Origin: a virus
Direction: 5' to 3' (one strand)
DNA: 37,910 nucleotides
IMG/VR virus record: IMGVR_UViG_3300009149_000113
Location: 1-37,910 of that record
In this document: positions 6,001 to 32,808 of the stretch, one piece after another
Layout: each line of letters opens with the position of its first letter
Position numbering within the stretch: position 1 is the stretch's first letter
Program-made: the position numbers and the translations under genes
Notes under the pieces: generated by a model
What the model saw: only the letters and a program-made list of their open reading frames with translations
Told to the model about the DNA's origin: nothing
The model's database searches: none

Positions 6001-9000
6001 ATATTGCATGGTCTTACCTGTATTACTTGGGTCATACCCCGCAGATAAAATATTACTTTGTGATTTACCTAATTTAAAATTACCGTTATTAAAAAGGTCA
6101 TTCATTTCACTATTACTATAATTGATTAGGGGTGATTTACCAGTAAAAAATTTATAAGTATCGTTAACCACTTTAGGGTAAAAACCATTATTAGTGAATT
6201 GAAAATCTGTTGTAACACCACTAACAGTTGTAGTTAAAGTTGTTTGAGGTACATATGTCGTTGAACCACCAGTATAGTTTTGAATGTCATATACTTTATT
6301 TATATTATTGGTAATCGGGTCATACGCGTTAACATAATTAAAATCCCCCCATATATCATTTAATATATCACCATTACCATTTTTATCCTCTTTATATCTA
6401 TGCCATATTGAACCGTATTTTAATAACCAAAGATAGGGTATCTTATGTATTGCCGCAAATTTACTTAGTCCCGCATATATGTTATCCCCCCATTTAGTTG
6501 TTGTAACACCCGCCTCACTTTCATTTCGACTTAAATATTTTTCGCTTAGTGTTGGTAATGGAAGTGAGTTTAAATAAAGGTAACCTAAACCAACATATGG
6601 ATTAACATTACCATTAGTTTCACCCGACACACCTTTTAATAATGCGTTAGTAAAATAAGGGGTATTTAAAAGTGATGTTGTCTGTGTTGATGTTAGGTTA
6701 TTAGTCGCTCCATTATAGTCCGTACCATAATTTAAACTTCCCTCAGTTAAATAAAAATCTTTATTTTCTCGATTATTGTAGTAAACAATCGACTGAGCAT
6801 TTGTTTCATACTGAGTACTATCACTATTATTTGACGTGTTTTGGTTGGGGTTTGATGGGTAATTTTTTTCATACTGAAAATAAGTCATATAACTATTATT
6901 ATACCTCTCATCGGTATCAGATTGGTCATCAAATGTCGCGATAGTTTTTTTAAGTATATTAAAATTCATAACACTTTCAGTACCATTTGCCTTTTCAATA
7001 CTACCCACCGAAGTACCTTTTGAGGTATTTTTTTGTAACCAAATTAAGTTATTAAATGGGTACACATCCATTAGTGTTGTTGCGTTTGATGATGAACTTG
7101 TAATATATTGTTCTAAATCTTTTACTGAATCCACTGAAGACACAATTTCCATTGAATTTGAATTCATACTTTCGATACTATAAATGCCGAAATCAACATC
7201 CATATAACCTTTGATATAGTCCTGAGTAAAAATATCTCTTGATTTTCTCGCGTAATAACTACCTTCCCCGTTATTTGAAATAGATAGTAGGTATTGATTA
7301 AATGTGGACGCGTTAAATTTAAACTCCTTTAATATTTTCATTAATTCAGGAATATTATCTAAACCATCCTTAATGTTGACAGATTCAAAATCAGCTAATA
7401 CATTATATAATGTTTTTCTAAAATTATTATTTCTTATAACCTTAGTATAGTTAGCCCCTAAATAAGTTCTTTCATATATTTCGTAAAAAAATGAAACAAA
7501 CTCTTCATTACTATATGGGGTATGTTCAAATGGAAACTCCACAGAATTTATACCAATATATTTAGAAACTTGAGTTTCGTTACCATAATTAATATTAATT
7601 TTAGGTTTATCTCGTTCTAATGACGCGGTAAGGTATTCCTCAACAAATTGTATCTCTGGCCATATACTATAATCGTATCCTTGGATTGTGTTTATGACAT
7701 CTTCTTGCCCGGGATACTTTAAAACATATTTAGAGTCTCCTTCTTTGGTTACTTCCTCTTCAAAATATTGAGGCCAAGGGTAAACGATTTGAGGATTTTC
7801 TAATGTATCACCTAATCCACCTACAGTAACTATTTTTAATGAATTTTTACCCTCAACACCAAAAGATTTCTCAGGAGGTATGATAGCACTTAACCTTACA
7901 GGGTCAGTTCTAACCTCCCAAGCGTCGGTATGGGTATTATCCATTAACCTATAGAACGCCTCTGCATTTGCACATATAACGGCCAAAACATTGTTCATGG
8001 TAGGATTAAATCCTAAACCTACATCAGATGATATTATTTTTTTCGCTAAGGCTTCTGATAATTGTTTTTCAATAGTTTCTCTTTTCTCCTTGAATGTACT
8101 CTCAATTTTGGCTAATTTAGCTAAGAAACTTCCATTCATGTAGTTTTTATCTTTAATTACATTACCAAATGAAATTAAGACTGATGGGTTTTCCGTTTCT
8201 TGTAATTCTCCGTCAGGACCTACTTTATAGCTTTTTGACGCAACCGCAAATTCCGCTTTAAGTTTTAACTCAAAATCCGCTAATTGGGTTTCAGTTGGGA
8301 CATTACCGTTTCGTCCAATATACGTATCTTTATAATTAATAACGCTTGGGTCCGTGATATTAGTTATAAAATCACTAGCTTTAATATTAACTGATATCTT
8401 CGATGGATTATCTTTACCTTCAATCACATATTTACCCGGACTGTAAAAGGTGGGATTATCTTTTAATGTTTTATTACCCTCATCAACGATTATCTTTAAT
8501 TTAGAAATTGCGGTTCTTCGTCCTTGAGCATCAAGTTCTTTTTTTAAACCATATAACTTAGAGGCTTTGGTATCATTTAAAATATATAATGATGTCGAAT
8601 CCACATACTGATTAAACCAATTCTCACCAATATCAGGATATACCTTAGTTCGGTATGTTCTGATACCTTGTTCATAACTAACAACGTCATTTAATACTGA
8701 CATATCTTCTTTAGAGTATGCTTCCATGACATATTTATTGAAGTACTCTAACCTCATCCTCATTTGATTCAGGGTTATTTCAGGAAAATCTTCATCAATT
8801 AATCCTTTAGATTTATATAAAGAATAGACTTCTTTTATTTTCTCCATTCCTTTAGTCGTATCTATCTTATCCATCGCCACTGTTCCTCCGGCGGGAATAC
8901 CTTTAACATTTTCTAATTCGTAACTCTTAGGATACATATGTGGTGTAGTATAAAGATAGTCTAATAACGTATCTTGTAAAAAAGCGTGTGACCTAGCAAC

Positions 9001-14854: not shown

Positions 14855-16783
14855 TTAGGAGTTATAAGTTCCTAACGTATTATTTATTTGAGAATTAATC
14901 GTAGCCATTGCGGTTGGATTATTAATTAGTAAGTTAGCTAATGCATCTTTATCTAATACTGAGTTGGTTGGTATCCCTTCAAGTGTGAGGTTAACTTGAC
15001 CGCTCACATTTACATTAGAATTAGACGCCATCATAGTTGTTGGTTCACCTATACTACCAGTACTGTAATTAAGACTAGATATAGATGGATTATCTCTACC
15101 CCCGGTTTCGTGATTAATTGATGGATTACCTCTACCCCCAGTTTCGTGGTCGATTATCTGAGTTTCACCATTCAAACTAGGGTTTTTTCTACTTCCAGTT
15201 TCTTTAAATATTCCCGAAATACTCTCAGGTAAGTTTTCGATAGCTAAAATAACTTCCCCCCAACCTTGCTTCATTAATAATAAAAGTGCGGCACCATCAG
15301 CTTTATCAATTAGTTGTTGAATAATCTCATTAGTGGCTTTAGCGGATTCATTAATACCATTAACAACCGCCTCAGTAATCGCGGCAGCTGTTTCCCTATC
15401 CATACTTAATTGTGTTTGTATTTGACCAATCCCACTAATAATATTGTCAGGAACCTTTATCTCATCTTCTCGTTTTAAAAACTCTTCAGTTAGCATTTTT
15501 TGAGCCTCTGTAGCTTTCTCAGCAAAAATATCAAAACCACCACCTTTTACTAAGTTTAACGTTGTTAAATTAATTAAAGTCTTCTGAGCTGCCTCAATTT
15601 GGTTAAGATAACCCATAGATTCCTTAGCGACATCAATTTCTGACATGTTATTAACATCTAACATATTTTCTAATTGAGTGTAATCACTAGCAATTAATTG
15701 ATTAAACCCTTCGCCAATTTTTTTAACCGTACCGTCTGGCATAGTTATCTCTAAATTACCATTAGCCCCAATTTTACCCATATTAGCGATTAGTTCTTTT
15801 TGCTCTTCAGGTACAGTATTAAAATTATCTAATATTTTTAACTTTTCAGTCTTTTGAGCCGCTTTCATACCCATCTCCGCAAACTCTTGATATGACATTC
15901 CAGCTAATTTTGCGGCTTCTCTAAGACGGTACATCTCAGTAACAGGAATATCAAACTCCCCTGACTCCTTATTAAATGAAACTGCCCCCGCTGCCATATC
16001 AACAAGACTATCTTGTAGTCCCGCCATATCTGTTTGAGCCATATTTAATAATGAGAATGGGTCTCCTAATTTACTAATTGACCCCCCTAACATTTGGAAT
16101 CCAGCTGCGGTTTTAATTGCCTTTTCAGGTGACATTAGTTCATCAGCAAAACTAACCGTCTTACCCATATCAATTCTTAAGGCTTGTGCTTGGGCAACCA
16201 TTTTAGAAAGACCTACGACACCGTCTTTAAAGTTATATGTGACCATTAACTTTAAATTCTTGTTAACCTCACCCATAAATGTGGAAACGTTTAAACCATA
16301 AGCTCTCGCTTGGTCGGTCATTTCTCCCATCATCGCAAGTGTTTGGTCTGTGGTATAACCTAAGGTATCGAATGAGGTAGCCATAGTAGCTAACTCGGTT
16401 GCCGTCATATTAGCGGTCATACCTAACGCTTGAAATCCTGTTATTTGTGAATCCGTGAGAAACGTATTTCTCATCATTGAATTATTTATCGCGGCAAATA
16501 ATTCAATATTTTTTTCAGCACTAATACCAATTTGCATAGTACTTTTAGCTGACTCAGCCATAACTTTTTGAACCTCATTACTTACCGCTCTAGTTTGTCC
16601 TAAACTTTCTCTAACCGTATTGGCAGATTTAGTTTGAATCGCAGCAGCCCTTTCAATTAACGAACCAACATCGATGATACTGTCTTTTAATTTTCTCGCA
16701 AATGCTGTAAGCGAGATGTCCGCTAACTTAATACTCGATTCTATCGATTTAACCTCTCCAGCTATTCCATCACCTTCAAACAT
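14855..16783 (-). CDS. Tail tape measure protein
   Basis: The 642-aa protein sets tail length and sits inside the tube until injection. It is Ala/Met/Thr-rich and strongly helical at the N-terminus, with an alternating pattern (FQALGMTANMTATELATMAT, then FDTLGYTTDQTLAMMGEM) typical of tape-measure cores. The C-terminal part (about 540-600) contains 12-residue repeats of the form H-E-T-G-G-R-x-N-P-S-I. The length is close to T4 gp29 (590 aa), so the predicted tail is about T4-sized. It follows the gp26-like/chaperone pair, the usual gene order for tape measures, and starts 13 nt after a TATTTATA motif. No lysozyme or other enzyme domain is visible. Confidence 0.75.
   Translation of the reverse strand: MFEGDGIAGEVKSIESSIKLADISLTAFARKLKDSIIDVGSLIERAAAIQTKSANTVRESLGQTRAVSNEVQKVMAESAKSTMQIGISAEKNIELFAAINNSMMRNTFLTDSQITGFQALGMTANMTATELATMATSFDTLGYTTDQTLAMMGEMTDQARAYGLNVSTFMGEVNKNLKLMVTYNFKDGVVGLSKMVAQAQALRIDMGKTVSFADELMSPEKAIKTAAGFQMLGGSISKLGDPFSLLNMAQTDMAGLQDSLVDMAAGAVSFNKESGEFDIPVTEMYRLREAAKLAGMSYQEFAEMGMKAAQKTEKLKILDNFNTVPEEQKELIANMGKIGANGNLEITMPDGTVKKIGEGFNQLIASDYTQLENMLDVNNMSEIDVAKESMGYLNQIEAAQKTLINLTTLNLVKGGGFDIFAEKATEAQKMLTEEFLKREDEIKVPDNIISGIGQIQTQLSMDRETAAAITEAVVNGINESAKATNEIIQQLIDKADGAALLLLMKQGWGEVILAIENLPESISGIFKETGSRKNPSLNGETQIIDHETGGRGNPSINHETGGRDNPSISSLNYSTGSIGEPTTMMASNSNVNVSGQVNLTLEGIPTNSVLDKDALANLLINNPTAMATINSQINNTLGTYNS
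15084..15155 (-). repeat. 36-bp tandem repeat in the tape measure gene
   Basis: Two 36-bp units, starting at 15084 and 15120, match at most positions; a more diverged third unit follows to about 15207. Each unit encodes 12 residues built around ETGGR-NPSI. The repeats lie near the C-terminus of the tape measure. Confidence 0.75.
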
Positions 16784-17826: not shown

Positions 17827-18315
17827 TTAGTACACCAAAATACATCTATCAGGACGTAATGTTGCTGTAATTGTCGCTAACGCATCGTCACTATAACCTA
17901 AACTGTCGAAATTAACGTCAGTTAAGAATGTCCCTTGTAATATCCATTTCTCAACTGCTACCCCTGTTGGGTCTAACATCTCTAAGTCTAAATCTTTCTT
18001 ATAACCTGCTGCGTATCCCATACGGCCTATAACGGACTCTGAGTGTAGTCTAACCCACTCCATTAAAGCTTGTGAGGCTGATGGACCGATTGGGTCACGG
18101 AAAGTAACGTTTATTGTGTTCCAGGTAAATCTACCTGCCACGTAAGTGGATGTGTTTAGAAAAGGAATTTCTGTGGACCCGATTTGGATGTTAGGTCTTG
18201 ATGTAGACTCAACATACCAAGAATTAATCCCCAATGAAGATGGAAAAGATAAGATAAATCTATTCTTTCTTTTTGGTTCATAAGGAACGGGCATTTTCAT
18301 TAATAAGTCTGCCAT
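17827..18315 (-). CDS. 19: Tail tube protein (gp19-like)
   Basis: The 162-aa protein stacks in hexamers to form the inner tube of the contractile tail. The length is nearly the same as T4 gp19 (163 aa). The sequence shows KRKNRFILSFP near the N-terminus, then SSTRPN-type turns (ESTSRPNIQIG), a TWNTINVTFRDPIG strand and LMEWVRLHSE, all typical of myovirus tubes. The C-terminal strands ITATLRPDRC close the barrel. It is downstream of the sheath, HAD and 50-aa genes and followed by a strong terminator, which fits a protein needed in many copies. The ATG is 37 nt after a TATTTATA motif. Confidence 0.85.
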   Translation of the reverse strand: MADLLMKMPVPYEPKRKNRFILSFPSSLGINSWYVESTSRPNIQIGSTEIPFLNTSTYVAGRFTWNTINVTFRDPIGPSASQALMEWVRLHSESVIGRMGYAAGYKKDLDLEMLDPTGVAVEKWILQGTFLTDVNFDSLGYSDDALATITATLRPDRCILVY

Positions 18316-19514: not shown

Positions 19515-22500
19515 TTAAATATCTTCAAAAGATGCTCCTGTAGGAGTAATCAAAAATTCAATATCAATAAATTCAAGTGCTCTTGTTGGTTTCAAGTAAA
19601 TTTTACCTGTTAACGTGTTAGAGTCTAAATCTTCAGGTGTACCTGAAACTGTAACTCTAAAGTCAATTAAACCTCTGTCTCTCCTAATACTATCTAAGAT
19701 AGGGTTAACTGAGTCTAAGAATTCTTGTCTTACTTGTTCGTCATTTTGTTCGAACAATAATCTTACCGCCACAGCCGAAATTAATTTACGTGCTTGTAGT
19801 AATAATCTTCTAACGTTTATTCTATCAAGTGCAGATTCTTTAACTTGTAAAGTTTTGTTACCCCATATTACAGTACCAACATCGGAGAAGGTTGCAATTG
19901 GGTTTAATCTACCTTGGTATAGTACATCTCTATCTTCTTGTGTTAACTTCTTACGTGCTTTAACTGAGTTAACTAAACCTCTTGTGTAACCCGCAGATGC
20001 GAACCATGGGAAAGCTATATTATCAGTTAATGCTAAGTTCCTAGCAACCTCACCTGTTGGTGGAAGATATATTTGTGTATTATTAACCGTGTCTCTCGTA
20101 AGTATCCATGGATAATAAGTTGCTGTGTAGTTAGAGTCTATTCCTGTGTCTACTAAATTATCTACCGCTTCTTCAGGGTAAATAAAGTCAGTATCAAAAC
20201 TACCTAATGAAGGTGTAAACATTTGATAGTCAGGTGTAGTACAGAGATAAATTGAATCTGCTCTATCCTGTTCAATCATATCAATTGCTGACTCAACTAA
20301 GTTTGAGTTATTTACATAATCAATACCTGGTGTAGTAAACACATTAATGTTAACTGATTCAGGATTATTAAATGTATATTGACCCCATAAGTAAGCGTAA
20401 TAATCTGTGTTAGCCCAAGTTAATTGGTCTGGTCCTACAATTTGTTTAAACGCTCCCCATCCTGTTGCGGTTGGATAACTTATCGATGGTGCCGCCCCTT
20501 TTCTAAATCCTGCTGCTCCTAATTGATATCTGTCACCGTTAGTTCTATATTGTCTATAAATATCCCATCCATCGAAACCTCCTGATGGAACTACTGTGAA
20601 CTTACGTGCATTTAATCTAAAATATGGACTACCTTCAGTTGGTTCTGAATCGAAACTCGCGTCCCCAACTTCAAAAGCCGTTTCACCTGACGTAATATAA
20701 TTAGAAGAAATCATAATAACCGTTGCTCCTGAATCCATATGGTAATCTTTAGTAAGGTAACCCCATGGTTGTGAATCAGTTGCGGTCCCTAAATTTGTAG
20801 GGTTTTGTTTTCCTTTATACTGTAAGAAATCTGAATCAATCCCTACGGTGTTTGAAACACCTAAGAAAGTTCTTCTTACTCTATCACCTGAACTTCTCGT
20901 TTCATTGTCAGTACCTGTCGCCGCACCAAATGGTGGGTTCCAAATAACTTCACCTGGTGTGTCGTATTTTGTTTTATATTCTAAGAATGGTGAATTAACT
21001 CCTGAGTATTGTCTAGTTTGGTATCCACGGAAACCACAAGGTAGTGAGTCATAAGGTGCGTCCTCATTCATCTCTAACATTATAAATCTTGACCTTAACT
21101 CAAACTCCCCATTAGATGTACCAATTCTTTTAGCTACAAAACTATTTTGATTCATATCCATAGTACAGTTAGTAAATTTCTCTAAAACTACTGGGTTAGC
21201 ATCGGTATCGAAGAAATCACGTACAACTACATCGAATGTCCCATTATTAAATGAAATGTTCATAATAGAGACTTTTATCTCTCTATTTGCGGTGTTACCA
21301 TCAGATATAGTTAATACCTTAAACATATTGTAAACTTGATTACCTCTTAATTCAGAAACGAAATAAGGTGTTTCAGGTGTTTGGTATCTTTCTAAGTACC
21401 ATCCGATACTTGTATTGGTTGCTAAATCTTGTCTAGCACTTGGTAAATCAACTAGGTCACAACTTAATCCACGGACTTTACCTAAACGATACCCCGTATT
21501 TAATAAGTTATAATATTCTTCCTCAACAAATAATGGTACCTCTGATTTCGGTTTCGCAAAATTTGATTTACCAAATACCTTTGAAAGGTAGTTTGAACTA
21601 GATAAGTTAAATGATGTTTGGAATATAAAGTTATCTCCATCGGTAGTTGTTGCAGAGACTGCAAAAGTCGAAAAAGGATTAGTGGATATACCAGAATACG
21701 CTCCTGTACAATCTAAAAGAACGTCAGTTACCCCTGATACCTCATAAACTGGTCCGTCATCATTTGTATAGTTATCTATACCTCTTGAACGTAAAGTTGC
21801 AACTACCACATCGTGGTAACCGCTATATGGTGTACCCGAATAGCTTGTTACATAAACTTTAGCCGTACCTTGGAAGTTAAGACCTACATTCGTCATTGAT
21901 GTTACACCCATACCAAAACCTGTACCGTTATACACGTTAGCAGTTTCAGTAAATAATGCGTAATACCATGGGTCATTAACCGATGCGGTTAAATCACAAG
22001 ATTCAAAAAGAATATCTTCTACATTAAATACATTAGTATTAACTGACCCAAGAGCCCCTGTTTGATTAACCGTATCGCCTGTAGTACTATTAAATGTGGA
22101 GGCACTTACCGCTCCCCAAAAATAAGATGTTTCTCCTGAAGTCGTGTTATTTACAATCTCCGAATATAAATATCTATCCATATCACGAATAATAGAGGAC
22201 TCTCCACCCGTATATGTTGTATATGGATTAGTTATCACATCCGTAATACTGATAGGTAATGCTGAGTAATTTACTCCAACACTTGTGGATGTTCCTGAAA
22301 CTCCTGTAAATGAAATAGAGAAAGGTCCTAAAACGCCTGTTGCCGTTGTACCTGAGCTATCTAAGTTACCGATAGTTGTTATTGACCATGAAGGCCCCGC
22401 GTCGTACCCTGATAAACCAAGTACTCTAGTAACAAACAATTGATTTGATTGTTGTAGATATGATTTCGCTATGTAAGCTGCCTCGTACTTAGGTATCTGA

Positions 22501-22709
22501 GTATTTACGAATTTAGTTGGATTTGTACCACCAAAATAGGATTGGAACTCATCGTAATTAGTTATGAAAATCGGCTCGAACGCTGGTCCCGAAATTGTTT
22601 CACCTACTAACCCAAGAGTTATGACTCCCACACTTTGTGCTACAAAACTTAAATCTCTTTCTGATGTATAAACACCCGGAGATACAAATACTTTGTTAGA
22701 TGTTGCCAT
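19515..22709 (-). CDS. 18: Contractile tail sheath protein (gp18-like, large)
   Basis: The 1064-aa protein forms the contractile outer sheath. The N-terminus FVSPGVYTSERDLSF, followed by VGVITLGLVGETISG and ITNYDEFQSYFGG, is the classic sheath start. The last 100 residues (VNVRRLLLQARKLI, then FLDSVNPILDSIRRDRGL and the final strands KPTRALEFIDIEF) form the conserved C-terminal domain that links neighbouring subunits. T4 gp18 is 659 aa, so about 400 extra residues are inserted in the middle, rich in Ser, Thr, Gly and Tyr, probably as surface domains. It is read from an ATG with a 32-nt A-rich spacer to a TATTTATC motif and is followed by a hairpin. The neighbours are the ribbon-helix-helix gene (divergent) and the 50-aa/HAD genes. 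Confidence 0.9.
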   Translation of the reverse strand: MATSNKVFVSPGVYTSERDLSFVAQSVGVITLGLVGETISGPAFEPIFITNYDEFQSYFGGTNPTKFVNTQIPKYEAAYIAKSYLQQSNQLFVTRVLGLSGYDAGPSWSITTIGNLDSSGTTATGVLGPFSISFTGVSGTSTSVGVNYSALPISITDVITNPYTTYTGGESSIIRDMDRYLYSEIVNNTTSGETSYFWGAVSASTFNSTTGDTVNQTGALGSVNTNVFNVEDILFESCDLTASVNDPWYYALFTETANVYNGTGFGMGVTSMTNVGLNFQGTAKVYVTSYSGTPYSGYHDVVVATLRSRGIDNYTNDDGPVYEVSGVTDVLLDCTGAYSGISTNPFSTFAVSATTTDGDNFIFQTSFNLSSSNYLSKVFGKSNFAKPKSEVPLFVEEEYYNLLNTGYRLGKVRGLSCDLVDLPSARQDLATNTSIGWYLERYQTPETPYFVSELRGNQVYNMFKVLTISDGNTANREIKVSIMNISFNNGTFDVVVRDFFDTDANPVVLEKFTNCTMDMNQNSFVAKRIGTSNGEFELRSRFIMLEMNEDAPYDSLPCGFRGYQTRQYSGVNSPFLEYKTKYDTPGEVIWNPPFGAATGTDNETRSSGDRVRRTFLGVSNTVGIDSDFLQYKGKQNPTNLGTATDSQPWGYLTKDYHMDSGATVIMISSNYITSGETAFEVGDASFDSEPTEGSPYFRLNARKFTVVPSGGFDGWDIYRQYRTNGDRYQLGAAGFRKGAAPSISYPTATGWGAFKQIVGPDQLTWANTDYYAYLWGQYTFNNPESVNINVFTTPGIDYVNNSNLVESAIDMIEQDRADSIYLCTTPDYQMFTPSLGSFDTDFIYPEEAVDNLVDTGIDSNYTATYYPWILTRDTVNNTQIYLPPTGEVARNLALTDNIAFPWFASAGYTRGLVNSVKARKKLTQEDRDVLYQGRLNPIATFSDVGTVIWGNKTLQVKESALDRINVRRLLLQARKLISAVAVRLLFEQNDEQVRQEFLDSVNPILDSIRRDRGLIDFRVTVSGTPEDLDSNTLTGKIYLKPTRALEFIDIEFLITPTGASFEDI

Positions 22710-24035: not shown

Positions 24036-24595
24036 TATTTTTTATTTTCACTTATAAAAAAAACTTTATTTTTAGAGTTAATCATCTCAACCTCATTAGC
24101 GTTATAGATTGGTTTTTCACTTCCCTTTCTGACGAATGAATCGTACTTATACGGATTATAAGTGATTATGTTTTCATTTGGCTCATCGGGTAAATCTTCA
24201 CACGGGTAATTACAAAACTCCACTAAGGTTCCGATAACAAACGCGTGGACATTTTTTCTCATCTCATCCCTTACTTTTTCTTTTCCTCCCTGTCTAACTC
24301 TAAACTCTACGTCATTTAATTTAACGTAATCGGCATACATAACAATTTTACCCTTATATGAAACTGAAAATGTGTGTTTATGTAAATTATAATAAACCAT
24401 AACTTTTTCACCTACGTAGTTTACCTCTTGATTATTGTTACCACATTTATGACAAATATATGGGTCATCCCCACCGTCACTTAAATCCCAAGACCAACCA
24501 CAATCATCACACACAACTTTTTCGCCCTCGATACCTTCACACATATGTACCATACAACTTTTAATTAAATTTATCTCTTTTATTAATTTTTTCAT
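24035..24595 (-). CDS. Zinc-ribbon protein of the neck/tail operon, function unknown
   Basis: The 186-aa protein has a zinc-ribbon-like segment at about residues 29-52: VCDDCGWSW, then a short Asp/Gly-rich turn and YICHKCGN, giving two CxxC knuckles. The following part (VYYNLHKHTFSVSYKGKIVM, then EFRVRQGGKEKVRDEMRKNV and HAFVIG) is strand-rich and basic, and may bind nucleic acid or protein. The rest is not recognised. It overlaps both neighbours by four or fewer bases, ATGA with the 171-aa gene and TAATG with the gp15-like gene, so it is made together with neck and tail terminator proteins. A role in assembly is likely by context only. Confidence 0.65.
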   Translation of the reverse strand: MKKLIKEINLIKSCMVHMCEGIEGEKVVCDDCGWSWDLSDGGDDPYICHKCGNNNQEVNYVGEKVMVYYNLHKHTFSVSYKGKIVMYADYVKLNDVEFRVRQGGKEKVRDEMRKNVHAFVIGTLVEFCNYPCEDLPDEPNENIITYNPYKYDSFVRKGSEKPIYNANEVEMINSKNKVFFISENKK

Positions 24596-25107
24596 ATCCC
24601 TCTAAATTCACCGTCATTAACAGGTGCCGCAATTATACTTCGGTAGAAAGGTTTGTAACCTCCATACGTATGTTTATTATCACTAACAACTCGGCCGTCA
24701 TTTACAACTGAATAATATCTTACTCGGTCCTCAGTTTCATAATACCCTAAGTAATCACCATAATCAATGTCGATATTTAACTCATCTAATGATTCTTGAT
24801 AGACACCCACTTTTAAGTTCCCGGGCTCCATTTGAGATAAGTTAGAACTAGCATAATTTTGATTATCAGGTGACTCAATGGTAACATAACCTTTAAACTC
24901 TACAGGTGGTAAAAATTGTATTCCATCTTCTAATGATTCACCATAAACATCGTCAGTTTTTGTTTTTTGTCGGTCAACCCGATATAAAACTATAGTAAAA
25001 TGCATGTCACCCTCAAGCCATTCTCGACCCATACTTTGTTCTAAACCAAAATCTTCGGACCCAAAAAACTTCTCTAATCGTGTTATAGGTATCTTTCTGT
25101 TACTCAT
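24592..25107 (-). CDS. Possible neck/head-completion protein
   Basis: The 171-aa protein is not clearly recognised. It is strand-rich: MHFTIVLYRVDRQKTKTDDV, then VEFKGYVTIESPDNQ, LDELNIDIDYGDYLGYY and RYYSVVNDGRVV. This outline, with an early D-x-Y-G-E motif and a later G-D-Y-L-G, resembles gp14-type neck or head-closure proteins, which join the portal to the tail. It is first in the three-gene unit that continues with the zinc-ribbon and gp15-like genes. The ATG at 25107 is preceded by TATTTATC (5 nt away) and TATTTATA (31 nt away). Structural role: likely. Neck: a guess from order. Confidence 0.4.
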   Translation of the reverse strand: MSNRKIPITRLEKFFGSEDFGLEQSMGREWLEGDMHFTIVLYRVDRQKTKTDDVYGESLEDGIQFLPPVEFKGYVTIESPDNQNYASSNLSQMEPGNLKVGVYQESLDELNIDIDYGDYLGYYETEDRVRYYSVVNDGRVVSDNKHTYGGYKPFYRSIIAAPVNDGEFRGI

Positions 25108-25120: not shown

Positions 25121-25138
25121 CATAGTTTATTGTTATAT

Positions 25139-25146
25139 TATAAATA
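25139..25146 (-). promoter_or_regulatory. TATTTATA motif 31 nt upstream of the 171-aa gene
   Basis: On the minus strand TATTTATAATATAAC stands 31 nt from the ATG at 25107, a spacing like those of sheath and tube. On the plus strand the same bases read TATAAATA, 7 nt before the helicase ATG at 25154, so the direction of action is not certain. Confidence 0.4.
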
Positions 25147-25153
25147 TCTCAAT

Positions 25154-26917
25154 ATGGAAAGTAATAAAGATAAATTATCCAAAATACCTGAAGTAAGGGC
25201 TCAACGTATATTAGAAGTATACGATGGGTTCAATAACTATATACAATCTATTCAAAAGAAGTTTAGAGAACAGAAACATTTTAAACTCACAAGAGCCCAA
25301 TCAGACTATATTAATACTTACCATAATCTTGTCCCAAAAATAGCAAGAAAATGGGTTGATTTAGATAGTTATTTTGGTAAAAAAATGATGGAGGATAAGT
25401 TACTTACAAAAGTACCTGAAAAAATATTTGTTGAAAAACTTTTAGTTGAAAAAGATAAGTCCTTTCACATTTGGGGTAAAATCTTTGAGAGTGAAAAATT
25501 ACACTCATTTTGGTTACCTCGTGTATCATTGATTAAAACTCAAGAGAACCTAAAAGTATCGATTGACTATTCAAAATATTCTCATCGTCCACCGTTAGAA
25601 CATCAGATAGAGTCAATTGAAAAATTGGCAACACATGATAAATATATTTTAGCGGATGATATGGGTTTAGGTAAAACTACTTCTACAGTAATAGCCGCTT
25701 TAGAATCTGGAGTAGAAAGAGTTTTAATTGTTTGTCCGGCATCTTTAAAATTTAATTGGAAAAGAGAAATTGAAAATTATACTGATAAAACAATATCAAT
25801 TGTTGAGGGTAAGAAATGGGAGAGCGCCGACTTTGTAATAATAAATTACGATATTTTAAAAAATTTCCATGACTTAAAAAATAAAGAAGAATCTATTATT
25901 CTACAAGAAGGGTTTGATTTAGTAGTTGTGGATGAGGCCCATTATATACAAAATGTACAAGCTAAACGAACTAAACTTATTAACGACATAATTAATTCAA
26001 TAGGTAAAGTGTGGTTATTAACGGGAACCCCAATGACATCGAGGCCTATAAATTATTATAATTTACTAAATTTAGTTGAGTCCCCCGTTGCATATAATTG
26101 GATGGCTTATGTTATTAGATATTGTGAGAGGTACCAATTTAATGTAGGTAACCGTAGAGTTTGGAACGTAAATGGGTCATCTAATTTAACTGAACTACGT
26201 GATAGAACTAAAACCCATGTACTACGAAGATTAAAACAAGACATTTTAGATTTACCTGATAAAATAATTACACCAATTTATTTAAATTTAAAGTCTAGAG
26301 ACTATGAAGGACTAATGAGTGAATATTATAATTGGATTGAAGATGACAGTGAACAGAAATCATTAACCGTTCAATTCTCTAAACTAATGAAAGTAAGACA
26401 AGTCATCGCTGAGAGTAAAGTCAATGAGACCTGTGAATTAGTTGAAAATATAATTGAGCAGGGGAAAAAAGTTATTGTATTCACAAATTTTACTAACGTT
26501 TTAAATAGAATAACCGACCATTTCGGGAACAAAGCGGTTAAGTTAGATGGAAAAATGAGTAAAATTGCCAGACAAAACTCGGTAGACCAATTCCAAGAAA
26601 ATGATAAAATTAAAGTCTTTGTCGGTAATTTAAAAGCTGCTGGTGTTGGAATAACATTAACGGCTGCGGAAGCCGTTATAATGAATGACTTATCTTTTGT
26701 ACCTTCAGACCACTCACAAGCCGAAGATAGGGCATATCGATATGGTCAAAATTCAAATGTTTCAGTATTTTACCCAATCTTTGAAAATTCTATTGAAGGG
26801 GCGATTTATGATATTTTGTCTCGAAAAAAGAATATATTTGAGACAGTTATGGGTGATAACGAAGATAGAGGAGACATTATGGAACAAATTATAAATCAAA
26901 TATCAGTAAGACGATGA
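25154..26917 (+). CDS. SNF2-family DNA helicase/translocase
   Basis: The 587-aa protein is an ATP-dependent DNA translocase that could remodel replication forks or recombination intermediates, a job that UvsW does in T4. Motifs: Q-motif-like LEHQIESIEKL around 148-158, Walker A DDMGLGKT (168-175), DEAH box at 260-263, TGTP at 290-293, motif V GVGITLTAAE around 497-506, and motif VI QAEDRAYRYGQ (522-532). The VVDEAHYIQN context and the RAYRYGQ form are those of SNF2/SMARCAL1-type enzymes rather than of UvsW. The N-terminal 140 residues are a private accessory domain. I start at ATG 25154; an upstream TTG at 25130 is open but overlaps the promoter region. Confidence 0.85.
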   Translation: MESNKDKLSKIPEVRAQRILEVYDGFNNYIQSIQKKFREQKHFKLTRAQSDYINTYHNLVPKIARKWVDLDSYFGKKMMEDKLLTKVPEKIFVEKLLVEKDKSFHIWGKIFESEKLHSFWLPRVSLIKTQENLKVSIDYSKYSHRPPLEHQIESIEKLATHDKYILADDMGLGKTTSTVIAALESGVERVLIVCPASLKFNWKREIENYTDKTISIVEGKKWESADFVIINYDILKNFHDLKNKEESIILQEGFDLVVVDEAHYIQNVQAKRTKLINDIINSIGKVWLLTGTPMTSRPINYYNLLNLVESPVAYNWMAYVIRYCERYQFNVGNRRVWNVNGSSNLTELRDRTKTHVLRRLKQDILDLPDKIITPIYLNLKSRDYEGLMSEYYNWIEDDSEQKSLTVQFSKLMKVRQVIAESKVNETCELVENIIEQGKKVIVFTNFTNVLNRITDHFGNKAVKLDGKMSKIARQNSVDQFQENDKIKVFVGNLKAAGVGITLTAAEAVIMNDLSFVPSDHSQAEDRAYRYGQNSNVSVFYPIFENSIEGAIYDILSRKKNIFETVMGDNEDRGDIMEQIINQISVRR

Positions 26918-26935: not shown

Positions 26936-26943
26936 TATTTATA
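26936..26943 (+). promoter_or_regulatory. TATTTATA motif upstream of the superoxide dismutase fusion gene
   Basis: TATTTATAATTAAAAGAAA is followed at once by ATG, with 11 nt between TATTTATA and the start. It is almost the same text as the copy upstream of the tape measure on the other strand. It suggests that the gene is expressed with the virion genes. Confidence 0.5.
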
Positions 26944-26954
26944 ATTAAAAGAAA

Positions 26955-28517
26955 ATGAAGTTCAAAAGATTAATAAATAAAATCTCATTTATAGAACATA
27001 AATTAAATAGCCGAGAAGAATTAACAGAAGTTAATCACAAAAACTCGCAATTCCCTAAAGAAATTTTAACAGAAATGAAAAAAATAGGTATTGAAAAATT
27101 GCCGTACTCTTATTCTGCCTTAGAGAGATTTATAGACTCAGAAACTATGGATACTCACTATAACAAACACTATAAAGGATACGTAAAAAAATTAAATGAC
27201 GCTCTATCAAGTAAAATTGATGGAGATATTGGATTAGAACAAATAATAAAAGGCATATCGAGATATAATAAAACAATCAGAGACAATGGTGGAGGAGTAT
27301 TTAACCACTCACTTTTTTGGAAAATCATGTCACCTGAAAAACAAAAAGCTCATGGAGAAATCTACAATAAGATAATCAAAGATTTTGATAATTTTCCAAA
27401 ATTTAAAAAAATATTTAGTAATGAGGCACTTAAAAACTTCGGGTCTGGATGGACATGGTTGGTTCTGACTAAATCGGGTAGATTAAAAGTTATGTCAACA
27501 CCGAACCAAGATAACCCATTAATGGATGTTGTAAAAAATGGTGGTTATCCATTACTTTGTTTAGATACATGGGAACACGCATATTACTTAAAATATCGTA
27601 ATAAAAGAGATGATTATATAAGGAATTTTTGGTCGGTAATTAATTGGGATTACGTTAACGAATTATACGTATCTCAAACATCAAAAAAATTAAATGAGAC
27701 AAAAATCGTAAAAAGTATTATCTCTGAAGGGGCAAGTGCCGGATGTAATAGAAATCAAGTTCAAACATATAGACGACTATTTAATACTAATCCTGAAATT
27801 AAAAAACGTTTTATGTATACCATTATGGATATATTAAAAGAGGTCTTTTCAGAATATTGGTATGAAAAAAATAAGTACTCTGAAGGTCAAATGTCAGGTA
27901 TTTACGATTACGAACAAAAAGGTCGTTCAGTTATTAATAAATTAAACACTAATTATACTGCGTTTTGTACATTAGTTAGTGATATTAATAAGTACTTAAG
28001 AAAATATGGTATCGATGCCATTAATTTTAACGATAAAAACCGTAACCAACAATTATCGGAAGTAGATAGATTAAATAAATATTTAGTTGAATTAAGATAT
28101 AGCATTTTTAATTCAGACTCCCCAACATTTAAAACTATCATGTCTGGTTTAGATAAAACTAATAAGTTTGGTGATAAACGTGAAGTAGATGCGGTTGTAA
28201 GTTTAAGAGAAATTTTTAAAACCGAGAAAGTTAAAAAAGTTGGGGAATTAGGTGATGTTGATGATATGATTAAAGGTATTGATGCAATTGTCCAATTACC
28301 TGAAGGGTCTAAAACCATACAAATAAAACCATTTAACGGTGTTAATAAACGAAACGGTAAAGTGGTTGTTTATGGTACTGGTAACGTTAAGCCCTATAAA
28401 ACAGATTACTTAGTTTTCCATAGTGATAAGTTAGGAACTGTTGTTTTTGAGAATAATTCTACCAAAATAATTAACGGTAGATACGTTTTTAACGAATCAT
28501 CTGAATATATTAATTAA
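26955..28517 (+). CDS. Mn-type superoxide dismutase fused to a PD-(D/E)XK-like C-terminal domain
   Basis: The 520-aa protein combines two unrelated parts. Residues about 48-240 are an Fe/Mn superoxide dismutase: LPYSYSALERFIDSETMDTH, FNHSLFW, FGSGWTWLVL, STPNQDNPLM and LDTWEHAYYLKYRNKRDDYI. The four metal ligands are present (His68, His118, Asp204, His208). Gly114 and Gln185 are at the positions typical of manganese enzymes. It would convert superoxide to peroxide and oxygen in the cytoplasm; no signal peptide is seen. Residues about 410-500 resemble a PD-(D/E)XK nuclease core: Glu410, G-I-D at 441-443, I-Q-I-K at 455-458 and a following TDYLVF strand. Residues 250-400 are helical and unassigned. 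It lies between the SNF2 and neck genes. The SOD is near certain, the nuclease fold moderate. Confidence 0.85.
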   Translation: MKFKRLINKISFIEHKLNSREELTEVNHKNSQFPKEILTEMKKIGIEKLPYSYSALERFIDSETMDTHYNKHYKGYVKKLNDALSSKIDGDIGLEQIIKGISRYNKTIRDNGGGVFNHSLFWKIMSPEKQKAHGEIYNKIIKDFDNFPKFKKIFSNEALKNFGSGWTWLVLTKSGRLKVMSTPNQDNPLMDVVKNGGYPLLCLDTWEHAYYLKYRNKRDDYIRNFWSVINWDYVNELYVSQTSKKLNETKIVKSIISEGASAGCNRNQVQTYRRLFNTNPEIKKRFMYTIMDILKEVFSEYWYEKNKYSEGQMSGIYDYEQKGRSVINKLNTNYTAFCTLVSDINKYLRKYGIDAINFNDKNRNQQLSEVDRLNKYLVELRYSIFNSDSPTFKTIMSGLDKTNKFGDKREVDAVVSLREIFKTEKVKKVGELGDVDDMIKGIDAIVQLPEGSKTIQIKPFNGVNKRNGKVVVYGTGNVKPYKTDYLVFHSDKLGTVVFENNSTKIINGRYVFNESSEYIN

Positions 28518-28558: not shown

Positions 28559-29671
28559 ATGTCAGTAATTAATGAACCACAAAGAACAAAACTATATACT
28601 CGTGTAAAACACCTACTAGGTGCACCAATACGTAGTGTAGAAGTCGAAGATGAAATGATGGACTCACTATTAGAGTTTTCAATTCAAGATTACGCCCAAT
28701 ATGTGAATGATTGGTTAATTGAATCACAATGGACATCTCTTTATGGGATGAACTTAGATGAAGAATCCGTCACAAGGGCATTTACCACACGTTCCTTAGA
28801 TTGGGAAACTCAATACACTTACGCATATTCTAAAATTGTTGGACTACAAGCGGGTGGTGACTATATACTTAAAAGGGATTATATTAACCTCGTAAACGGT
28901 CAACAAATATATGAAATACCCGCAGGTAGAGAAGTTAATGAAATTTTATGGTTTACTCGTGCGGAGTTAGACGCGGCTTTTTTCGACCTATTTATGGGTG
29001 GTATGGGAGGCATGGGTGGTGGAGGTCTCGGTGGTGGTGCCGGTTTCTCACAAATGGGTTCAGCTGGAAATTATGCTATAACACCCGCATTTGATATATT
29101 ACTTAGAATGCAAGACATAAATTTAAAACGAAGAATTATAAGTGGTGAGTTAACATACCGTATTACTGCACTTCCTGAAGATAAAAAAGCACTACATCTT
29201 TATAATGTGCCTGGTGGGGAGTTTGATTTTGGTAATATAGCAAATAACGAATATAAAGTATGGTATTGGTATTATGAGACCGATGATAGGGAAGATTGTT
29301 TAGCAAATAACCCTGACGTTGTTAGATTACCTTCCGATATACCTATTGATGAGATGTTATGGGCGGAGTTAAATAACCCAGCACAGGCTTGGGTTAGGAA
29401 ATGGTTTGTCGCATACGTTAAAGAAACTTTAGGTCGTGTCCGAGGTAAATTTAGTGGTAATTTAAAGACACCTGATTCTGAAGTCACAATGGATTATGAT
29501 TCATTACTTACAGAGGCTAAGGACGAAAAAAGTAAATTAATGGAAGAGTTAATTGCTAGGTTAGAAAGATTAAGACCAGATAAAATGATGGAAAGAGAGG
29601 CTAATTTAGCTGAAAACCTTAATAAATCATTACAGTACCGAGCTCTACCTCGTCAAATGTATGTAATATAA
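28559..29671 (+). CDS. gp13-like neck / head-completion protein
   Basis: The 370-aa protein would sit in the head-tail connector. The N-terminus (LYTRVKHLLGAPIRSVEVED, then MMDSLLEFSIQDYAQYVND) is the typical start of T4 gp13-type neck proteins, in which a first helix is followed by LGAP and a V-E-V-x-D strand. A Gly/Met-rich loop (MGGMGGMGGGGLGGGAG) lies at about residues 142-158. The C-terminal half contains AWVRKWFVAYVKETLGRVRG and ends in a helix. T4 gp13 has 309 aa; the extra length is mainly the loop and C-terminus. It is followed after 1 nt by the 111-aa gene. Confidence 0.65.
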   Translation: MSVINEPQRTKLYTRVKHLLGAPIRSVEVEDEMMDSLLEFSIQDYAQYVNDWLIESQWTSLYGMNLDEESVTRAFTTRSLDWETQYTYAYSKIVGLQAGGDYILKRDYINLVNGQQIYEIPAGREVNEILWFTRAELDAAFFDLFMGGMGGMGGGGLGGGAGFSQMGSAGNYAITPAFDILLRMQDINLKRRIISGELTYRITALPEDKKALHLYNVPGGEFDFGNIANNEYKVWYWYYETDDREDCLANNPDVVRLPSDIPIDEMLWAELNNPAQAWVRKWFVAYVKETLGRVRGKFSGNLKTPDSEVTMDYDSLLTEAKDEKSKLMEELIARLERLRPDKMMEREANLAENLNKSLQYRALPRQMYVI

Positions 29672-29672
29672 T

Positions 29673-30008
29673 ATGGGAATCTCAAAATCATACCCAATAA
29701 AAAAAATAATAAACGGTCAAGAAAAGTTTATTTCAGACTCTATAATTGTGAACGGATTAAACTACACAACTAATGGAGAAGGGGTAATTATTGTAAAAAA
29801 TAAAATTAATGTTAGTACTATAACATTAGATAACACTACGACTAACCACATAACTATTAAGTCTATGTGTGATACCATTATAAAAACAGACAAACTAATC
29901 GATGAAGAATATGAAGAAATTCAACTAGAAAGGTTTGCTTCTGTAGAATTAAAGTTCGTTGGAGATAATTGGTATGTTATGTCTTCTGACGGATTAAAGA
30001 ATTCATAA
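29673..30008 (+). CDS. Small fibre-like structural protein
   Basis: The 111-aa protein is strand-rich and has a pattern often seen in phage fibre or decoration proteins: ITIKSMCDTIIKTD, then a short acidic turn and SVELKFVGDNWYVMSSDG at the end. The final hydrophobic W-Y-V-x-S-S-D-G motif is like the tips of beta-structured fibre repeats. It begins 1 nt after the stop of the gp13-like gene, so it is made with the neck protein, and may be a whisker or collar part. Its last 32 bp overlap the end of the convergent DNA polymerase gene. No specific family is claimed. Confidence 0.5.
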   Translation: MGISKSYPIKKIINGQEKFISDSIIVNGLNYTTNGEGVIIVKNKINVSTITLDNTTTNHITIKSMCDTIIKTDKLIDEEYEEIQLERFASVELKFVGDNWYVMSSDGLKNS

Positions 30009-32808
30009 TTTCCATATTCTTATTAACATATTTCTCATCTACTAATTTAGTAGTGTTTTCTAAGTACATATAAAACGGGCTTATATTAACATCATTCCAA
30101 AATCTAATTTCTGGTTCTGATAAAGTTAAAACCTCATCTAAATTATCTTGACTACCTTCTTTCATTGGGAAACCTCTAACTAATTCTGTTTGAGATTTTG
30201 TGAAAAATGGTCGGTCTTCAGGGTTGTCGATTAATACTTCACTACGAATATCAGGAGAAAAAACTACTAATAAGGGCTCAATACGTTTATTAAACGCCGC
30301 CATATATCTAGGGATATTATATTCACCTAATTTGTCAGGTGTTTCACTAATATATTTATCATCAATCAAGTAACAATTAAGTACAATTTCGGAAGAGTCA
30401 GGAGGCATTGGTTTCCCATTAACAATAGCATATTCTCTCTTTTCAGCTGCGGTTGCGCTCCACTTATTTTTTTTCTGTACGTCACCATGAGACTTTCTTT
30501 CTCCATTATTGACATAGTAGATAGTGTCACCTAAACCAACATTTAACTTATGTTTTATAGATAATTCCATGTGAGCTTGTCTTGACATTAAAGAACCTGA
30601 TTTAGTTCTTTTTTTCATATGTAATTTATAATCACCGATACTTTGTTTTACACGAGATTTGTTGGCTATTTTAGAAATTGGTATTTGTAAGTTATAGATT
30701 TTATCAACATACTCATAATAAAAATCTAAGAACTCGTGACCTTTACCATCTAATAATAGTCTTAACCCGTGGTCCAAAAACTCAGCAACATATGTGGGTA
30801 GTTTTTTAGATTTAATACTATTTCCCGTTAATTTAACTTTACCTGTGTCAGTAAGTAACGCGTAGTTTTTACGTGCAACATTTATAGTTGATGGCCATAC
30901 CCCATCAGTATCTAACCCCATTTCTCCCCTCATGAATATATCGTTGTATTCCGCAACATCTGCTTCTGTACCGATGTATTCTTTACCTTCGACAACTAAA
31001 CCATTTAAACCTTTACCTATGTATGTATGTTTTTCACGTTCAGGTGGTGAGGAAAAGTTAACCCCATCAGTATCCATTACAAGAGGATTATACCCGCGTT
31101 TCATAAACCACATAATCATTTGTCTAAGATATTGTCGACCAGTACACGTAATTTGTTCACCCATATCCATATCTCCCCATGGAAATACATGAGGGGCAGA
31201 TAATGAACCAAAGAAAGCGTTAATGAATATTTTAATCGGTAATTGTTTACGGTTATACTTCTTAGATTGCTCAGGGTCGGATACGTATAAATCTGAGGCT
31301 AACTGTTTATAGTTAATACGGGTATCTCTAAAGTACTTCAACATACTCTTCATTGCCCCCGTTACATCACACTTAGGGAACACATCATGGACTAACTGTA
31401 TTGATGGGTATAGTGAGGAGTAATCTAATTTTAAAACGTCCGTAGAGTACCCAACGGCTAATAATCTTGAGAGTCCCCCGGTAAATGGTCTCTTCTCACC
31501 TTTCTTAGGGATAGCTAAATTATGTTTATATGACCATGCTGCCATAATCATCTTCCATAATGTAGCTGTACCCATAGTAGATAGTCGTTCATATGTGGTA
31601 GGAACCAGTTTAGAGAGTAGAAAATTTGCTTGATTAAATTCTTCATCAACAATCATAGTCTCCCATATATCATCATAAAGATATCTCTCAATAATATAGT
31701 TACCGTTTACCTTCTCGTAATGGCCTGGAAATCTTTCCATTAGGTCTTCAGTTCCTGTTGACCCAACTTCTTTATAACCACCCGTCTTAGGATTAAAATA
31801 ATAGTCTTTATTGTCAAAATAAATTTTACCAATTTTATCTCCCTCAACATAAACTCTGTTTTCTTTTTCCGCTCCGATGAATTTAGTGATATATTTAAGT
31901 CCCCAACTTTTAATGTCTGAATTAATTGCTTGGGTTCTTCTAACGGCATGCGCAATATCAATGATATTATACCCCCACATCATTGTTTGAGTATATGGCT
32001 CCATTTCATTAGCCAATTTTAACATACCTTCTTTCTGTCTTAATTTTTGTTTAGGATTTAATGTTTTAGATATTTTTTTGATATCTAATCCTAATATTTC
32101 GGCTCTACGAATAATAAAGGGGAAATCGAAAAACGCTGAATTATATCCTCCGATTAACGATGGTTTAATAAATGATATAATATCAAAAAACTCAATAATT
32201 AATTTACGTTCTTCTTCGTCATTCTCACACGCAATAACCTTTTCAAACCCTTTATTGTCTTTCATACCTATCATGAAAATTCTACTTTCTTCTGGAGATA
32301 GTCCCGTTGTCTCAATATCGAATACGAACCTATGTACCTCATCATACTCATCAAACCCTTTAAAAAGTCTTTTATTTTTTTGTATGAGATATTGTTCCGC
32401 GGGTGCTAGAATCATTATATAGTCGGAATTACCTCGACCCCATGGGTCTAACCCACCACCCTTAAAGAAGTTCACTAAGTTACTATATGTTTTAGTTGTT
32501 TTAACTAAATATTTTAAACCTTCTTCCATTCGTGAATCATTATGTGTATCTAACGTTTCTATGATAATACCATGTGTAGACATGGCTTGTTTCTGAGCAG
32601 ATTTAGACCCACCATAAAAGTTAATTCCTTGTAGGTTACCTACCCAAGCGAATGGGATAAATGTGTCTGATTTTATTGTTTTACCCTGAAGAGGGTCTTG
32701 AATTACTTTGAATATTTTTCCTGATGCGTAATCATATTCTAACGCTACTATATACTTTTCAGGGTCTTCTCCGTTAAGGAAGATTTCAATTTCTTCTTGT
32801 GATACCAT
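29977..32808 (-). CDS. 43: Family B DNA polymerase (gp43-like)
   Basis: The 943-aa replicative polymerase has a 3'-5' exonuclease: Exo I FDIETTGL (Asp164, Glu166), Exo II GYNSAFFDFP (Asp228), Exo III around YLYDD (376-380). The polymerase motifs are A LDYSSLYPSI (Asp462), B around KIFINAFFGSLSAPH (526-540), and C MDTDGVNF (Asp579, Asp581). Motif C has Gly in place of the usual Ser after DTD. A segment of about 60 residues (about 310-372) is inserted before Exo III. T4 gp43 has 898 aa. It is transcribed on its own from a Bacteroidota-type promoter at 32906-32876, and its end overlaps a convergent gene by 32 bp. It would work with the gp32-type SSB encoded at the left end of the window. Confidence 0.92.
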   Translation of the reverse strand: MVSQEEIEIFLNGEDPEKYIVALEYDYASGKIFKVIQDPLQGKTIKSDTFIPFAWVGNLQGINFYGGSKSAQKQAMSTHGIIIETLDTHNDSRMEEGLKYLVKTTKTYSNLVNFFKGGGLDPWGRGNSDYIMILAPAEQYLIQKNKRLFKGFDEYDEVHRFVFDIETTGLSPEESRIFMIGMKDNKGFEKVIACENDEEERKLIIEFFDIISFIKPSLIGGYNSAFFDFPFIIRRAEILGLDIKKISKTLNPKQKLRQKEGMLKLANEMEPYTQTMMWGYNIIDIAHAVRRTQAINSDIKSWGLKYITKFIGAEKENRVYVEGDKIGKIYFDNKDYYFNPKTGGYKEVGSTGTEDLMERFPGHYEKVNGNYIIERYLYDDIWETMIVDEEFNQANFLLSKLVPTTYERLSTMGTATLWKMIMAAWSYKHNLAIPKKGEKRPFTGGLSRLLAVGYSTDVLKLDYSSLYPSIQLVHDVFPKCDVTGAMKSMLKYFRDTRINYKQLASDLYVSDPEQSKKYNRKQLPIKIFINAFFGSLSAPHVFPWGDMDMGEQITCTGRQYLRQMIMWFMKRGYNPLVMDTDGVNFSSPPEREKHTYIGKGLNGLVVEGKEYIGTEADVAEYNDIFMRGEMGLDTDGVWPSTINVARKNYALLTDTGKVKLTGNSIKSKKLPTYVAEFLDHGLRLLLDGKGHEFLDFYYEYVDKIYNLQIPISKIANKSRVKQSIGDYKLHMKKRTKSGSLMSRQAHMELSIKHKLNVGLGDTIYYVNNGERKSHGDVQKKNKWSATAAEKREYAIVNGKPMPPDSSEIVLNCYLIDDKYISETPDKLGEYNIPRYMAAFNKRIEPLLVVFSPDIRSEVLIDNPEDRPFFTKSQTELVRGFPMKEGSQDNLDEVLTLSEPEIRFWNDVNISPFYMYLENTTKLVDEKYVNKNMEIMNSLIRQKT

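Follow-up and report, generated by a model that had tools for sequence, protein, structure and literature searches.

A single polypeptide of T4-like phages is predicted to combine an intact Mn-type superoxide dismutase (SOD) domain with a helical and PD-(D/E)XK-like module that follows it, and from conservation at the sequence level we regard it as almost certain that this fusion is genuine and that both of its catalytic sites are intact. The gene lies in a 37,910-nucleotide stretch of viral DNA (IMG/VR record IMGVR_UViG_3300009149_000113; hereafter, the window). An earlier, sequence-only reading of the window had placed it at positions 26955 to 28517, where an ATG-initiated open reading frame of 520 codons was indeed found on the + strand, with the following parts:

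26955–28517, + strand: SOD-nuclease fusion gene, 520 aa, ATG start
26955–27092, + strand: N-terminal region ahead of the SOD domain (residues 1–46), with a helix at its start (residues ~2–22)
27093–27662, + strand: Fe/Mn superoxide dismutase domain (residues 47–236), with ligands His68, His118, Asp204 and His208
27690–28145, + strand: helical part of the nuclease module (residues ~246–397), with conserved GRSVINKLNTNY and CxLVxDIN motifs
28146–28514, + strand: PD-(D/E)XK-like core (residues ~398–520), with Glu410 on a helix and Asp443 and Gln456-x-Lys458 on strands

Profile searches with the 520-aa protein matched Pfam Sod_Fe_N to residues 47–126 (E 2.7e-21) and Sod_Fe_C to residues 133–236 (E 4e-38), both SOD domains lying far above their curated cut-offs (130 + 76 bits vs 20.9 + 27). 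Mn-SODs were retrieved from the PDB by phmmer at E 1e-56, the alignment spanning residues 48–238, and among NCBIfam models, the matches of which were confined to the SOD half of the protein, SOD [Mn] scored higher than SOD [Fe] (180 and 163 bits, both under the equivalog cut-offs). The sequence-only reading had named the four metal ligands His68, His118, Asp204 and His208 together with Gly114 and Gln185, which are Mn-type residues. All six are present, and the four ligands proved invariant in 110/110 distinct fused proteins, as did the second-sphere or dimer positions His72, Tyr76, Gly114, Asn117, Trp122, Trp166, Gln185, Trp206, Glu207 and Tyr211, Glu207 and Tyr211 being dimer-bridge positions; invariance thus extended to 14/14 of the SOD positions examined. 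With such a complement of residues, the SOD domain is very probably catalytically active. In a phylogenetic tree, the fusion SODs formed one clade (support 100/100) amid mostly Bacteroidota SODs, the cellular SODs nearest to them also being mostly from this phylum, so that the SOD was likely captured once; we infer that Bacteroidota are the hosts of these phages.

For the C-terminal half, a PD-(D/E)XK identity had been proposed from Glu410, a GID triplet at residues 441–443 and an IQIK stretch at residues 455–458. All of these were found, the Gly and Asp of the triplet, Gln456 and Lys458 being invariant. Glu410, Asp437, Asp443, Gln456 and Lys458 were identical in the 109/109 fused proteins covering this region of the C half, and the same residues (Glu410, Asp443, Gln456-x-Lys458 and Asp437) were invariant in 46/46 diverse nuclease modules, a set of representatives that includes three devoid of SOD, among them a homologue from a 735-kb phage. 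Fully invariant positions among the 46 modules are a small set, to which the catalytic-motif residues belong; within the core, Asp437 and Tyr481 are invariant. TnsA and Mrr-type enzymes are active PD-(D/E)XK members in which Gln replaces the second acidic residue. Residues 246–520 yielded no convincing match in Pfam, PHROGs, PDB profiles or NCBIfam, the PHROG matches of the C half being only weak (phrog_5018, a family of unknown function, best E 0.003), and the Hjc family (PF01870) was matched neither in the C half nor in the records of 20 relatives. Single-sequence matches by phmmer to beta-propellers in the PDB ('Pizza', PknD) over C-half residues ~187–239 were low-complexity repeat matches; since they vanished under profile search and conflicted with the predicted model, the beta-propeller reading was rejected.

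An AlphaFold2 model of the C half, built with 21 homologues, reached medium confidence (mean pLDDT 72, pTM 0.50), the core helix and most core strands lying at pLDDT ~70–90 and the loop preceding Asp443 being weaker; a model of the full-length fusion resembled it. The modeled C half has a mixed alpha-beta core with the order helix, strands, helix, as in the PD-(D/E)XK superfamily. In a Foldseek search of this model against the PDB, a PD-(D/E)XK-like core was recovered, the top 14 matches all being PD-(D/E)XK enzymes (I-Ssp6803I and archaeal Hjc) with probabilities up to 1.00 and E-values of only 0.018–0.46. Among the viral models of BFVD, two apparent relatives were followed by matches including, by name, a PD(D/E)XK endonuclease and a Holliday junction resolvase. 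Because the Foldseek E-values are weak, the assignment rests on the fold, the order of secondary-structure elements and the invariant E...D...QxK residues together. The fold search thus put first the fold anticipated by the earlier reading, and the C half is in all likelihood a PD-(D/E)XK nuclease, as judged by its motif and predicted structure.

The fusion recurs in at least 176 loci on at least ~150 distinct IMG/VR contigs, some contigs being counted twice among the loci, in one open frame holding both the SOD and the nuclease module, and at least 110 of the fused proteins are distinct. IMG/VR was scanned with four kinds of query, namely the entire protein, its C half and a pair of C-half alignments, one of these scans alone giving at least 454 confirmed stretches, and profiles of both halves were run on every locus retrieved: three loci had the nuclease module alone, against 176 that were fused. 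Identity of the C half to the window protein drops to ~33% among fused relatives with no change in domain order, and the fusion was intact in a near-identical 162-kb contig of a separate record (L002). No homologue with the SOD and nuclease halves as separate genes was found among the relatives retrieved, and no nuclease half was found, with the patterns used, in the bacteria and archaea of 84,980 species genomes. Values of dN/dS were 0.03–0.10 in both halves (Nei-Gojobori, 14 pairs, two of the nuclease values being saturated), indicating strong purifying selection on the SOD half and the nuclease half. Being intact in L002 and in at least ~150 further contigs, the fusion is neither a product of chance nor an assembly error; a widespread uncultivated group of T4-like phages carries it and has retained it in nearly all relatives examined.

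The window derives from the genome of a T4-like myovirus and encodes a UvsX-like recombinase, a gp32-like single-stranded DNA-binding protein and a family-B polymerase, along with the tail tube, sheath, baseplate and neck proteins of the virion. The surroundings of the fusion gene comprise:

25130–26917, + strand: SNF2/UvsW-like DNA helicase, the immediately upstream syntenic partner
26936–26944, + strand: AT-rich TATTTATAA motif before the fusion gene, 11–19 nt before its ATG
28559–29671, + strand: neck / head-tail adaptor protein (PHROG 211), following the fusion gene in the majority of inspected loci
29977–32808, − strand: family B DNA polymerase (PolB), convergent, ending the conserved block

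In 9/9 relatives inspected, the genes follow one another as helicase, fusion (or nuclease alone), neck gene, small ORF and convergent PolB, with an extra ORF separating fusion and neck gene in three of the nine loci (L094, L072 and L068). In L094 (6848–7987) and L072 (6833–7981) this ORF encodes 379–382 aa and had no significant match in a PHROG search; that of L068 encodes 101 aa. The upstream helicase matches SNF2 and phage DNA-helicase profiles, which match T4 weakly, and a helicase of the SNF2/UvsW type is present in one copy in each of 20/20 long records. In T4, UvsW carries out branch migration. The sequence-only reading had suggested that the protein could protect phage DNA or virions, or take part in an attack on host DNA; its conserved placement among genes for virion and recombination proteins points to phage DNA being processed late in infection rather than to an attack on the host.

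Two other genes of the window deserve mention in their own right. The tail sheath gene (19515–22709, − strand) encodes an unusually long protein of 1064 aa, the best stretch of the sheath profile covering residues ~849–1061 and the N-terminal ~850 aa being largely without profile assignment. The nearest annotated relatives of PolB (29977–32808, − strand) are found in Salinibacter and Nostoc/Anabaena phages, at 24–26% identity.

The TATTTATAA motif is also found ahead of the neck gene and of genes 14855–16783, 17827–18315 and 24592–25107, its positions near genes being 16796, 18352 and 25138 on the − strand and 26936 and 28537 on the + strand. The window holds 10 copies against 4.2 expected, and 1/100 shuffles reached 10. 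The 'late-type motif' of the sequence-only reading is this AT-rich sequence, which several virion-type genes share; TATTTATAA is a candidate element of promoters, perhaps late ones, in this group of phages.

Contigs L093 and L100 carry at the equivalent locus the helicase, the nuclease module alone (294 aa), the neck protein and PolB, and no SOD was found elsewhere on either of them. A third form without SOD comes from a much larger genome:

LR756501.1 (L104; 735-kb huge phage), 5743–6615: stand-alone nuclease-module homologue, 290 aa, hhalign E 1.4e-14

This homologue retains the catalytic residues and has no SOD domain, and no SOD gene was found in the LR756501 genome. The record is unannotated; a gene near the stand-alone module was named by eye as PhoH-like. 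The GRSVINKLNTNY and CxLVxDIN motifs of the helical part are retained in the SOD-less forms too. Conversely, in 20/20 fusion-bearing records tested, the only SOD gene is the fusion itself, in a single copy. Since L093, L100 and LR756501 have the module without SOD, and the fusion is the sole SOD of those 20 records, it is quite probable that the nuclease module represents the constant partner and that the SOD was joined to it, an event that probably happened once. L093 and L100, which group in the tree with a fused relative (95/77), favoring SOD loss, although the root sits on a very long branch, either lost or never had the SOD, which is therefore not indispensable. At their N-termini, a likeness to the N-terminal helix of the fused protein L171 is seen, none of 500 shuffles giving an equally good alignment; it is weaker or absent when other fused proteins, including that of the window, are compared. 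An N-terminus resembling the region of residues 1–46 may thus also be present in SOD-less relatives, which would fit excision of the SOD segment from, or its insertion into, a helix-plus-nuclease protein.

The best overall explanation, which we put forward tentatively, is that of a late nuclease for branched DNA, to which an SOD was added for dimerization and local removal of superoxide. The nuclease would provide the constant function: as an endonuclease of late DNA processing, it would cut phage DNA that is branched or arises from recombination, with Holliday junctions and forks as envisaged substrates, and would cooperate with the UvsW-like helicase encoded next to it, either ahead of packaging or in its course. 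Such joint processing of branched DNA with the helicase is a possibility that we would not yet call probable. The SOD, captured once and probably from a Bacteroidota-like donor, would pair two nuclease domains through its usual dimer and clear superoxide near DNA and metal centers late in infection, when host respiration and lysis could increase the oxidant load as infection ends. Protection of the DNA or of the enzyme from oxidants may conceivably be the reason for the fusion, a suggestion advanced with the same reserve. More speculative still, and somewhat unlikely, is the proposal that a sizeable group of T4-like and probably Bacteroidota-infecting phages has a bifunctional enzyme of a new class, in which superoxide dismutation would be physically coupled to DNA cutting, allowing DNA to mature in a local oxidant-free zone or the SOD domain to exert redox or manganese tuning.

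Profiles of other resolvases were run on the long records. RuvC, Hjc and RusA gave no match above cut-off, nor did Endonuclease VII, for which the T4 positive control was found and a weak sub-threshold match was seen in G018 (E 0.004); this absence, which is weak evidence for a resolvase role of the fusion, holds at the level of profiles, as contigs may be fragments and a diverged resolvase would escape.

We consider it unlikely that the fusion is instead a virion or injected protein, the nuclease of which would serve in head completion or at DNA ends as a functional analogue of T4 gp4 or gp2, while the SOD would shield from superoxide the phage DNA, both in the virion and on entry, as well as the cytoplasm of the host. 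The position of the gene directly before the neck gene and the TATTTATAA motif that it has in common with virion genes are consistent with such a role, as is the pattern of T4 gp4 (E29...D68...E82-I-K84-P), which is similar to that of the C half; yet hhalign probabilities of 0.1–0.3% reveal no detectable homology, and the C half was accordingly rejected as a gp4 or gp2. A search of 21 fusion-family records yielded no gp4 homologue, a point in favor of the virion role, but this absence is weak evidence because the same search also failed in the T4-like Flavobacterium phage Immuto. LR756501, moreover, has a clear gp4 homologue (70679–71107, E 1e-34) alongside its stand-alone module, so that in this genome the module is not simply gp4.

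Returning to the preferred reading of a late nuclease coupled to a working SOD, it seems improbable that the SOD domain is mostly a scaffold for dimerization and metal loading of the nuclease, with dismutase activity being incidental. Fe/Mn SODs are obligate dimers, PD-(D/E)XK resolvases and homing enzymes work as dimers or tetramers, and the dimer-bridge positions Glu207 and Tyr211 are invariant; however, a pure scaffold should lose some of its catalytic residues, and every one of those checked, His72, Tyr76 and Gln185 among them, is the same throughout the 110 proteins. Just as doubtful is a function outside phage DNA maturation, in degrading host DNA or in countering a host defense that uses superoxide or DNA. 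T4-like phages do degrade host DNA, and a nuclease and an ROS-scavenging enzyme together could serve host takeover, but the position of the gene is fixed among late virion and recombination genes, a PADLOC search gave no match that would indicate membership of a defense system, and the low dN/dS (0.03–0.10) shows no sign of arms-race turnover. That two genes were artificially joined through a missing stop, in assembly or annotation, is ruled out for practical purposes by at least ~150 contigs with an uninterrupted open frame and a constant domain order down to ~33% identity in the nuclease half.

SODs of phages are commonly counted among the loose auxiliary metabolic genes. In the present case, the SOD forms one protein with a nuclease, its gene lies in the late region close to the virion genes, and almost every member found of a broad phage group retains the fusion. 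Control of oxidants is thereby linked directly to the processing of phage DNA, which offers a testable prediction as to why phages carry SODs. The analysis also names an undescribed nuclease family, of which a 735-kb phage has a stand-alone member, and could help to amend database entries in which the entire protein is labeled 'superoxide dismutase' and the fusion is classed as metabolism. As a separate observation, the SOD in the region 90065–100637 of MW462191.1 (L103) is neighbored by an aminotransferase, an L,D-transpeptidase, efflux genes and DeoR/HxlR regulators; this record, like several OR84/OR85 'phage' records that lack annotation, may hold DNA of cellular origin deposited under a phage label, and misfiling of this kind could make SODs seem more frequent in phages than they are.

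Fe/Mn SODs and PD-(D/E)XK nucleases are each already known; what appears undescribed is the fusion architecture and the nuclease family. The sequence-only reading knew of no standard family with this fusion, and no paper on a phage SOD-nuclease fusion was found in titles and abstracts of mostly non-subscription literature, but the window protein is not unique: A0A6J5L953, 'superoxide dismutase [uncultured Caudovirales phage]', is a full-length relative (501 aa, 44% identity over 496 alignment columns). That database entry takes its name from the SOD half; for the other half, no description was found. Compared to the Fe/Mn SOD family (PF00081 + PF02777), the fusion has the complete two-domain SOD with its ligands, second sphere and Gly114/Gln185, but adds ~46 N-terminal residues and a C-terminal module of 275 aa, and its clade is phage-specific. 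Archaeal Hjc and I-Ssp6803I, the best fold matches of the C half, share its E...D...QxK layout; the likeness is at fold level only, the C half being without a profile match and having an extra helical domain and the SOD fusion. The T4 head-completion nuclease gp4 (PHROG 218) is another late nuclease of T4 type, and its E...D...ExKP pattern resembles that of the C half, but it shows no detectable homology to the latter, and gp4 and the stand-alone module are both present in the 735-kb phage. Finally, Vibrio phage 2.275.O and Pseudomonas phages PA5oct and MIJ3 encode stand-alone Fe/Mn SODs that are divergent from the fusion (25–29% identity) and lie in other gene contexts, that of the Vibrio phage being a short separate gene.
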